Below, in pieces: positions 15,607 through 49,210 of a stretch of DNA of 62,477 nucleotides; position 1 is the first letter of the stretch; each line of letters starts with the position of its first letter. The stretch is from Erysipelothrix sp. GTDB taxonomy: Bacteria; Bacillota_I; Bacilli_A; Erysipelotrichales; Erysipelotrichaceae. The notes beneath the pieces were generated by a model. The model was not told the DNA's origin. It did not search any database and saw only the letters and a list, made by a program, of their open reading frames with translations. The translations under genes were made by a program, and so were the position numbers. The DNA is taken from assembly GCA_012727815.1 (NCBI GenBank), contig JAAYGI010000035.1:1-62477 (forward strand), given 5' to 3'.

Positions 15607-16820
15607 TTAATTGTTAGGGGTATGTCTGTAAGGTTTTGTATCCCTTGTGATTACTTCAAAATGGTAACCGTGTTCTTTTGCATATCGTATTATATCTTTT
15701 AGTGCTAATGCACTTTGAGCCTTAGTATCGTGCATTAAGACATGATTTGATTTTGTTTTAGAGAGATTTTGTGTAACATTTTGATATATTTTTTGAGAGC
15801 CAATATTTCCAATAGCATCTTGAGAATCTACATTCCAGTCAAAGTATGTATAACCTTTATTTAGAACATTATTTGCTAGAAAAGTCATTATGCCATTACT
15901 ATATTTACGACTAACTGTATTAGAACTTCCCCCTGGAATCTAATAATACTTGAGGAAGTTTGTGTAAGTCTTGTGACTCTATCACTTACCTTGTTAAGGT
16001 CACTATAATAGTTGTCTACAGAAGCATAAACATCACTGTAAAGATGAGAATAGGTGTGGAGTGCAATTGTGTGGCCTTCATTATATGCGCGTACAATCAG
16101 TGCATCAGGACCTTTTCCTGTAACAAAGAAAGTTGCTTTAACACCTTCTTCTTTAAGGGTATCTAATATATCAGAAGTAACTGTAGGATGTGGCCCATCA
16201 TCAAAACTCAAGTATATGACCCCAGGTGTGCTGTTTGTGTTTCCTTTATTAGTTGAATTTGAAAGTACAATTGGTGGGATGATAATAGGTTTATATACTT
16301 TGACGATTCGTTTTAACTCTGTTTGATTATTGGAGCTGTCTTTGGCAAGATAAGTCAGTTCATAAGTACCTTCAGTTTCAGTATCAAGGGTACCACTTAT
16401 GAGGACTTCAACAGTATCATCATAATTGTCTTCTACATTATACCCTTGTTCTTGGTATGAATCTCCAACTTTTAAACTTGTCTCTAAGTCACCTTTTAGT
16501 GATAGGGAAGGTGCTAAATCATCAATTACTTCAATATTTCTAGTAACGGATTTCATATGGTAGATCCACTTATATTCATATGTTATAGAGTAAGAACCAA
16601 TCTTATCGAGATTAAGATCCGTCTTTAAAAAAGGTGAGTCCTCAATTGTTTTATTCATGTATTTTACAAGGGCGCCTGCATCTTCGTAGTTGTCGCCATA
16701 TTTTAAAACAATATCAGATGACCCTAATAATGTGAGTTTAGAGTATGTATCCTTATGCCAAAGATACATGGATAAGGATAAAAGTAAGATTAAAGGTAAT
16801 ATCCATTATAATTTCTTCAT
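15607..16820 (-). pseudogene. polysaccharide deacetylase with Ig-like domain, broken by a stop and a frameshift
   Basis: Read across the breaks, this is a membrane-anchored or secreted CE4 deacetylase: an N-terminal hydrophobic segment, a DUF5011-like Ig-fold region (about residues 40-170), then the NodB domain with SFDDGPHP, HTYSH, RFPGG, DWNVDSQD and HVLMHDT. The natural start at 16820 has a good site (AAAGGGGAT) but codon 5 is TAA (16808-16806). Translation could restart only at 16769, losing the signal segment. Near 15935 one base is missing in the RFPGG motif (TTC-CAG-GGG instead of TTC-CCA-GGG), shifting frame. Catalytic motifs beyond the shift are intact, so decay is recent, or the assembly has two errors. 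Confidence 0.85.
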
Positions 16821-42419: not shown

Positions 42420-44189
42420 ATGGCTAGAAATAGATTTGATGAAGATGAAGTCTTAAAGACTCCTTTTGGTATCAGTCAATTCAAAAGAGCACTAACTTAT
42501 GTAACACACTACAAGATGGGAATGATTAATTCATTACTCTTAAGTGTATTATCTGCCCTTTTATCACTCAGTACCCCAATTATAACAATTCATGTTATTG
42601 ACAATATTATTCCCAGCAAGAGTATAAAGAACTTAATTTTATGGGTTACAATATTCTTAATTACCATACTTATTTCAATGTTTTTAACAACAGTAAGAGC
42701 GAAATTAATGACTAAAGTAGGTCAAGCGATTGTATATGATATAAGATCAGACTTATTTGAACATTTACAATACCTACCTTTTGATTATTATGATGCAAGA
42801 CCCCAAGGGAAAATATTGATCAGGGTTGTTAACTATGTTAACGCTGTATCAGATATGTTATCCAATGGACTTATTAACTTAATCTTAGAGGTCGTAAACG
42901 TATTTATTATTATGGGTTTTATGTTTTTTGTTAACGTTCAACTATCTTTTATTATTTTAAGTGGTGTTCCAATTGGTTTAACAGCAATCTTGATCATTAG
43001 AAATAAGCAAAGAAAAGCATGGCAAGATTTATCCAATAAATCGTCAAACACCAATGCTTATTTGCAGGAAAGTATTACTGGAATGCAAATAACACAAATT
43101 TATAATAGAGAATCACAGAATTAAAATATATTCTCAAATCTCTCAGATGATTATAGAAAATCATGGATTAAAGCTGTAAAATTGAATGCAATATTTCCAT
43201 TTATTATTGATAACTTAATGAATATTATTACAGCAGCAATTTATGGTGTAAGTTTACTTATTATTGGACCATCCAATTTAAGTCTGGGTGTTATTTTGGC
43301 GATGGGATCTTATGCATTAAGATTTTGGAATCCAATCCTAAGTATTGCAAATATATTTAATACATTTGTAACATCAATATCATATTTAGAACGTATTTTT
43401 GAAACCATGGACGAACCCTTAAGTATTCAAGATAAAGAAGGGGCATATGAACTGAAAAATATTGAAGGAAAAGTTTCCTTTAAAAATGTATCCTTTGGTT
43501 ATGAACCCCATAAATATGTCATTGAGAATATCAACTTCGATATAGAACCAGGAATGCGTGTAGCAATTGTTGGTGCAACCGGAGCAGGTAAGACAACGAT
43601 TGTAAATCTTCTTTCTAGATTCTATGACCTAGATTCTGGAAGTATAGAAATCGATGGTCATAATATTCAAGATGTAACACTCAAGTCTTTAAGAAAACAA
43701 ATGGGAATTATGATGCAAGATAACTATATCTTTAATACAAGCATAAAAGAAAATATCAGATATGGTAGCTTTGATGTGAATGATGAAAAAATATATGAAG
43801 TAACAAAATCTCTATCGATAGATTCATTTATTAACTCTTATGAAGAAGGTTATGACACCATAGTATCCAACCAAAGTGGAAGATTGTCAGAGGGACAAAA
43901 ACAACTGGTTGCAATGGCAAGAACCTTAATTAGAGATCCGAAAATACTAATATTAGATGAGGCAACCTCCTCTATTGATACACAAACCGAGATTTTAGTT
44001 CAAAATGGACTTAAGCATATTATGAAAGGTAGAACCTCATTTATAATTGCTCATAGACTCTCAACAATTAAAGATGCAGATCTAATCTTCTATATGGATA
44101 ACAAGTCAATAGAAGAAAAGGGTACTCATGAATCTCTTATGGCCCTTAAAGGTAAATATTACAATTTAGTGAATGCAAATATTGAATAA
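42420..44189 (+). pseudogene. partner ABC exporter half-transporter with an in-frame stop codon
   Basis: A continuous frame of 590 codons encodes a half-transporter like the one upstream, but codon 235 is TAA (43122-43124, context NRESQN*NIFSNLSDDY). The frame resumes without a shift. The stop falls within the membrane domain, before the nucleotide-binding domain with Walker A GATGAGKTT, LSEGQKQL signature and ILILDEATSSID. A single base change from CAA, GAA or AAA would explain it. Everything downstream is intact, indicating recent loss, readthrough, or a base-call error. This half carries the consensus catalytic Glu, so losing it should inactivate the exporter. Confidence 0.85.
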
Positions 44190-47506: not shown

Positions 47507-49210
47507 ATGAAAATCAAAAAGATGAAATTTACCAAAGAGGCAGCACATGATATATCAGGGAAATGGTATGGAAAGAATTGGCCTGTTGTTTATATATTAA
47601 ACAATAGAAAAGAAGCCTATGTTGGTGAAACAATATCAGCAACAAATAGATTGAGACAACATTTAGAAAATGCGCAAAGAACTGAACTGACTGAAGTAAA
47701 TATTATATCTCATGACAAATTTCATAAATCAGCAGTTTTAGATATCGAGTCTAAACTTATTGAATATATGTCAGCTGATGATAAGTATAAATTGCAAAAT
47801 AGTAACAGTGGTATGAGAAATCATGATTATTATCAAAAAGAAATTTACGATAAGATGTTTCAAAAGATATGGTCGGAACTAAAAAGAAATGAAATTGTTA
47901 AAAATGATTTAGATGTACTGATGAACTCTGACCTTTTTAAATATACGCCTTATAAAAGGTTAACTGAAGAACAATATTCCGTAGTCTATGAAATGGTCTT
48001 AGACATGGTTGTATCGATAGAAATAGGTCAATCAACAACAACTGTTATAAATGGTGAAGCAGGTACCGGAAAGACTGTAATGGCAATGTACCTAATGAAA
48101 TTATTTGCAGATGATAAAGTCTTTGAATTTCTAGAAAAAGAAGATTATGCTGGAAAGTTTATAGATAGATTTGAAAAAACAAGACAGATTATCAAGGATT
48201 ATAAAATCGCATTAGTTGTACCAATGACCTCACTAAGGAAAACCTTAAAAGAAGTTGCAAAAAATATCAAAGGTTTGCAAGCATCAATGGTTATTGGACC
48301 CTCTGATGTAGTTAAGGATGATTATGATATATCGATAGTTGATGAGTCCCACCGTTTAGCAAGAAGAGTAGGACTTCCTAATTATGGAAGTCATGATAAA
48401 GTGAATAGAAGTTTAGGAATTGATATTGAAAGTTCACAACTTGAATGGATTCTATTACGATCAAAACATCAAATATTCTTTTATGATAATGCACAATCTG
48501 TAAGACCTGGGGATGTATTACCACAAGATTTTCAAGAATTAAAGAAAGATCATAATTACATCAGTTACAGTATTATTTCTCAACTGCGTGTGATGGGAGG
48601 TAATGACTATATCAATTATATAAAGAAGATATTTGAGCAAACTCAAGATCATAAGATTGAATCTTTTGGTGATTATGAATTTATGCTCTTTGAAAATATT
48701 TCCGATATGAAATTTTACATACATGAAAAAGAAGAGATGCATGGTTTATCCAGGATGCTTGCAGGTTATGCTTGGAAATGGGTAACAAAGAAAAAGAAAA
48801 ATAAAGAAATTGATCCAGACCTATATGACATTGTTATTCAAGATGAAAAATTCAAATGGAACTCAACAAATAGTGGGTGGGTGAACTCAAAAAATGCCAT
48901 CCATGAAGTCGGAAGTATCCATACAATTCAAGGTTATGATTTAAATTATGCTGGTATAATTATTGGTGAAGATTTAAAATATGATACTAAGATAAAATCA
49001 TTTACAAGTGATAAAGCTGACTACTATGATAGAAATGGAAAAGTGACAATAACTGATCCAAAACAACTTTTAAATTACATTATAAATATATACCAGGTAC
49101 TTTTAACAAGATCTATCAAAGGGACATTTATCTATGTTGTTGATGATGGTTTAAGAGATTACCTCAGTCAGTTCATAAAACTTTATGATGCCAATGGTAA
49201 TCACTCATAA
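47507..49210 (+). CDS. GIY-YIG nuclease-like plus DUF2075 helicase-like ATPase
   Basis: A 567-residue two-domain protein. The N-terminus (about 25-110) has a GIY-YIG-like core: VVYILNN, AYVGET, Arg48 and Glu81 (IESKLIEY). The second domain is a P-loop NTPase of the DUF2075/Schlafen-3-like type: Walker A GEAGTGKT at 183-190, Walker B IVDESHRL at about 277-284, then SQLRVMGG and VGSIHTIQGYDLNY as later helicase motifs. It likely processes DNA or RNA using ATP. Coupled to the MazG-like gene; role not established. Defence or nucleotide-stress response is an inference. Confidence 0.85.
   Translation: MKIKKMKFTKEAAHDISGKWYGKNWPVVYILNNRKEAYVGETISATNRLRQHLENAQRTELTEVNIISHDKFHKSAVLDIESKLIEYMSADDKYKLQNSNSGMRNHDYYQKEIYDKMFQKIWSELKRNEIVKNDLDVLMNSDLFKYTPYKRLTEEQYSVVYEMVLDMVVSIEIGQSTTTVINGEAGTGKTVMAMYLMKLFADDKVFEFLEKEDYAGKFIDRFEKTRQIIKDYKIALVVPMTSLRKTLKEVAKNIKGLQASMVIGPSDVVKDDYDISIVDESHRLARRVGLPNYGSHDKVNRSLGIDIESSQLEWILLRSKHQIFFYDNAQSVRPGDVLPQDFQELKKDHNYISYSIISQLRVMGGNDYINYIKKIFEQTQDHKIESFGDYEFMLFENISDMKFYIHEKEEMHGLSRMLAGYAWKWVTKKKKNKEIDPDLYDIVIQDEKFKWNSTNSGWVNSKNAIHEVGSIHTIQGYDLNYAGIIIGEDLKYDTKIKSFTSDKADYYDRNGKVTITDPKQLLNYIINIYQVLLTRSIKGTFIYVVDDGLRDYLSQFIKLYDANGNHS

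Follow-up and report, generated by a model that had tools for sequence, protein, structure and literature searches.

Heterodimeric ABC exporters with one degenerate ATP site, such as TM287/288, TmrAB and BmrCD, are encoded by adjacent subunit genes and combine Glu in the Walker B motif of one subunit with Asp in that of the other. Where PMC7756269 treats degenerate sites, the change from Glu to Asp is the second most frequent one, and such sites are described as hydrolysing ATP too slowly for sustained transport. A gene pair with the same arrangement and the same Glu/Asp pair is present in a genome of Erysipelothrix sp., within the 62,477-nucleotide stretch of contig JAAYGI010000035.1 that was analysed here and is called the window. 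Gene B of this pair directly adjoins the end of gene A (42419/42420). Its frame (42420-44189, forward strand) comprises 589 codons plus the final stop and holds exactly one internal stop codon (Table 1).

Table 1. Coordinates of the exporter gene pair, of the internal stop codon and of a second interrupted gene in the window
Feature	Positions	Strand	Remarks
Gene A, intact exporter subunit, 584 aa	40665-42419	+	Walker B Asp (degenerate-site side), signature LSGGQ
Gene B, first piece, 234 codons	42420-43121	+	first part of membrane domain
In-frame TAA, codon 235 of B	43122-43124	+	read as a sense codon in each of 80 distinct related loci (best 80 of 274)
Gene B, second piece, 354 codons plus stop	43125-44189	+	end of membrane domain, ATP-binding domain with canonical Glu, signature LSEGQ
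Ig-like/polysaccharide deacetylase gene, frame-shifted	15607-16769	-	frame change near 15930

An earlier note on this DNA had described the frame as unshifted after the TAA and the segments on both sides of it as exporter-like, and both descriptions hold. There is no frame shift, and the frame stays open for 354 codons up to the stop at 44187-44189. The first piece of B covers positions 1-201 of the 274 positions of the Pfam ABC_membrane model. The second piece takes up the same model at positions 206-268, with 21.8 bits (below the cut-off of 28) and an E value of 0.00017, and continues into a full ABC_tran domain. On the solved chain of TM_0288 (3qf4_B), which the two pieces match over its length, they align to residues 17-236 and 242-588. 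Since the pieces abut on both the solved chain and the Pfam models, nothing is missing at the break, and B is one gene cut by a single codon. Because the second piece continues the same family and shares 66% identity with its nearest relative, the 354-codon continuation is not a chance open reading frame. Hydrophobic stretches lie at residues 32-98 and 146-196 of the first piece, and a further hydrophobic group follows beyond the break at residues 257-297.

The two adjacent genes each encode a membrane domain and an ATP-binding domain, which for B is the case only if the stop codon is read as X. The Walker B motif of B reads ILILDE and that of A ILILDD, so that the interrupted half is the one with the consensus Glu, as previously pointed out. 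The catalytic motifs of B are all retained. Its Walker B Glu is kept in 80 of 80 relatives of B (the best 80 of 274 loci), and the Asp of A is kept in all 74 relatives of A that were retained. Given this conservation, the asymmetry of the pair is the standard one of heterodimeric exporters. The domains of both genes and the conserved asymmetry thus bear out the earlier interpretation as a heterodimeric exporter, and the sequence evidence supports an ordinary ABCB-like ABC exporter. An intact partner gene and conserved motifs are not by themselves proof of a working pump.

The pair starts 9 bases past a gene for a YesN-like response regulator. Two ROK-family genes and a DHDPS-family gene follow downstream, and sugar uptake genes, glycosidases and a BNR-repeat gene are found nearby. 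Judging from the spacing, B and the ROK genes may be co-transcribed, in which case the stop codon could lower ROK expression by polarity. In the search for operon signals, promoter-like sites were no more frequent than in shuffled sequences (35 versus 38.8). Terminator-like sites numbered 6 versus 2.1 in shuffles, and none lies between 40665 and 44189. The wider surroundings (16982-47022) form a glycan-foraging region with GH92, GH125, GH38, two GH20 and a GH2 enzyme with a BgaA-like binding domain. The region also contains a BNR-repeat (sialidase-like) protein, a sugar importer with a DUF3502 binding protein, a YesM/YesN-like pair, the two ROK proteins and the DHDPS-family gene. Beyond it, directly 3' of a MazG-like gene, a Schlafen group 3 helicase-domain protein is encoded at 47507-49210 (forward strand), and this stretch has a DNA match in contig 6 of the Erysipelothrix genome G010.

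Comparison of the locus with that of relatives, a check proposed in the earlier note, found the stop codon in none of them. Relatives of B were collected in one scan of genome_contigs, in which the best 80 of 274 loci were kept; locus L090 is identical to locus L009 and was left out of the 80 distinct loci. An internal stop was present in 0 of these 80 (best 80 of 274), with every match spanning codon 235. The column of the stop codon is variable among the relatives, so that no special residue occupies that place, and the preceding residue is identical in all rows. Among 13 genomes of the genus, the genome under study included, a clear ortholog of B was found in one other, G010, with 66% identity over the second piece and an open frame of 593 codons. 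The best matches in the remaining 11 genomes reach 41-47%. Across 115 sampled genomes of the family, at most about 630 of the 1770 bases of B are covered by DNA matches outside its own genome. In locus L009, the A-B pair is the sole part that matches the window. The stop is known from one genome only, this being the one genome of the species that was compared.

These observations are most economically explained by a single substitution. We favour the reading, with a probability of roughly 0.56, that an ordinary heterodimeric ABC exporter has recently been hit by one nonsense mutation in B. Translation of B would then terminate within the membrane domain, with 234 residues made. As a consequence, the membrane domain would be incomplete and the pair would lack its canonical ATP site, and the exporter would be expected to be inactive, provided that the base is real and that truncated B does not work. 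A real lesion is favoured by the single stop without frame shift, the abutting pieces, the stop-free relatives and the drift of the ATP-binding domain described below. Against a loss of B stand the post hoc nature of the drift test, the retained motifs and the absence of any further stop or frame shift in the frame of B.

The second piece still resembles a protein-coding sequence, which suggests that the lesion is young or an error. Compared with L009, the nearest intact relative, pN and pS are 0.246 and 0.733 in the second piece and 0.282 and 0.775 in the first. Synonymous sites are near saturation in this comparison, and most of the divergence between B and L009 must predate the stop; the pN and pS values thus speak against an old lesion and show nothing more. 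In the second piece, a single-base change would create a stop in about 4-5% of cases. Since no second stop is present, neutral change after the lesion is bounded at about 61-75 substitutions in 1062 bases.

Drift was further assessed by counting private changes at columns conserved in at least 80% of the 79 other loci. The ATP-binding domain of B has 18 such changes in the window versus 3 in L009 (p 0.0015; post hoc), and 10 versus 0 changes fall on the 97 invariant columns that follow the stop. Among 80 full-length rows, the window has the most deviations in this domain (12; the next row has 8). Of 300 sampled control pairs, not independent of one another, 5 show a difference as large. Half of the 10 unusual residues at invariant columns are absent from all 43 distinct paralogs, and the other half are present in some. 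The membrane domain of B carries 6 private changes in the window versus 6 in L009. For the A subunit, 74 of the 80 loci were kept, four being dropped because A is cut off there and the best match was therefore probably B, and two because they were short. Its ATP-binding domain has 10 changes versus 7, and the contrast with B gives p 0.08. Directly past the stop, at residues 236-330, there are 2 changes versus 1. As this segment has no excess, the excess of changes follows the ATP-binding domain and not the lesion. The faster drift of this domain in B may reflect relaxed constraint. Such drift is predicted by loss of constraint but not by a base error. The same pattern would result from a functional shift that preceded the stop.

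The main rival to a nonsense mutation is an error in base calling or assembly, or a variant carried by a minority of a mixed strain population, with the real B intact. We regard this as a serious but lesser possibility. It agrees with a fragmented assembly (123 contigs, 84% complete, 3% contamination), with a stop seen in a single genome and with a protein-like second piece free of any second lesion. It does not predict the faster drift of the ATP-binding domain, and 12 other exporter genes of the same genome, A included, have no internal stop (among the 13 of 60 matches listed). A second copy of B was not found in this genome, where the remaining DNA matches are short stretches at 66-90% identity. 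An error is also suggested by another gene of the window, a putative deacetylase on the reverse strand. The polysaccharide-deacetylase ORF at 15888-16769 gives way to a second ORF in another frame (15607-15939), and the frame change adjoins a run of five G. Runs of this kind are sites where consensus errors occur. The Pfam match of the first ORF breaks off at position 102 of 124. Residues 117-226 of the peptidoglycan GlcNAc deacetylase chain 5jmu_A are matched by the second ORF (E 4.3e-19), which also matches plasmid genes annotated as polysaccharide deacetylases. Matches to the second ORF were confined to its own genome (1 of 13 genomes of the genus), and those to the first are weak elsewhere in the genus. 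No close intact ortholog was seen in these 13 genomes, and a scan of viral_contigs with a piece of this gene gave no relative. B as the sole interrupted gene of the window is ruled out by this frame shift. Pfam scans, in which 46 other long ORFs each had at least one family at E 1e-5, missed it, so such scans are no proof that the other genes are whole. The presence of two unlike lesions within 62 kb is compatible with gene decay, which would support the loss of B, and equally with a weak consensus. The second broken gene shifted the probability of a real lesion from 0.62 to 0.56 and moved error or polymorphism from a rather unlikely explanation to a substantial minority one. Of the earlier proposal that a nonsense mutation has switched off the exporter, the substitution therefore stands as the most economical account, and the inactivation is still rivalled by an error.

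The earlier note had also considered programmed readthrough or a split protein, for which no positive evidence was obtained. If the stop is real but leaky, readthrough would yield a little full-length B and the exporter would be turned down, not off. The low pN relative to pS in the second piece and the retained catalytic motifs agree with this, and many bacterial in-frame stops are argued not to be pseudogenes in the part of PMC7918605 concerned with them. However, nearly all of the divergence is probably older than the stop and is then no evidence of present function, and the stop is shared by none of the best 80 of 274 related loci. RNA folding 3' of the stop is no better than in shuffles (z 0.68). 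Three signs of recoding, namely a stop kept in relatives, a stimulating structure and a suppressor tRNA, were not found, the last in an incomplete tRNA set. TAA terminates 32 of the 48 long genes of the window. A suppressor tRNA and a missing release factor were rejected as candidates: none of the 21 tRNA matches has a UAA-reading anticodon in this 84% complete genome, and both release-factor models match above the cut-off. Leaky readthrough is thus improbable. A variant in which the stop is tolerated, leaky readthrough keeps B low so that the nonsense codon dims the exporter in this lineage, and the ATP-binding domain of B has been retuned is very unlikely. The split form, in which the two pieces of B would be translated separately and then join A, is the least credible. 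The break does fall between two hydrophobic groups, at residues 146-196 and 257-297, and the second piece is in frame. No split form occurs among the 80 relatives (best 80 of 274), though, and a search for restart sites in the 570 bases that follow the stop (43125-43697) found no strong ribosome-binding site before ATG, GTG or TTG. Near the beginning of the second piece, pairing energies are -3.1 (TTG 43182) and -1.9 kcal/mol (ATG 43218) versus -12.5 at the start of B itself. The best ATG or TTG starts in this stretch (43296 and 43302, -6.3 kcal/mol) both lie inside the membrane domain. The strongest site precedes CTG 43452 (residue 345; -8.8 kcal/mol), a rare start codon that would give an ATP-binding-domain fragment at most, and ATT 43599 has -7.1 kcal/mol. 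Weak pairing speaks against a restart but is suggestive and not proof, because 17 of 41 control starts are also weaker than -5, partly as the starts of longest ORFs were used.

With a recent nonsense mutation as the preferred reading, the stop in B would represent a common kind of gene damage, leaving one exporter probably inactive in one genome, and its value is mainly for annotation. If the stop is real and read through, B would instead offer a natural system in which to test leaky termination of a membrane transporter. As far as PMC7918605 deals with them, in-frame stops in bacterial genes are widespread and mostly short-lived, and the cases described there have a nonsense codon inside an otherwise protein-like gene, as in B. 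That survey, in its account of the selection, kept only stops common to at least two genomes to exclude errors, whereas the stop in B is seen in one. Unlike TM287/288, TmrAB and BmrCD, the pair described here has one subunit gene interrupted by a stop codon.
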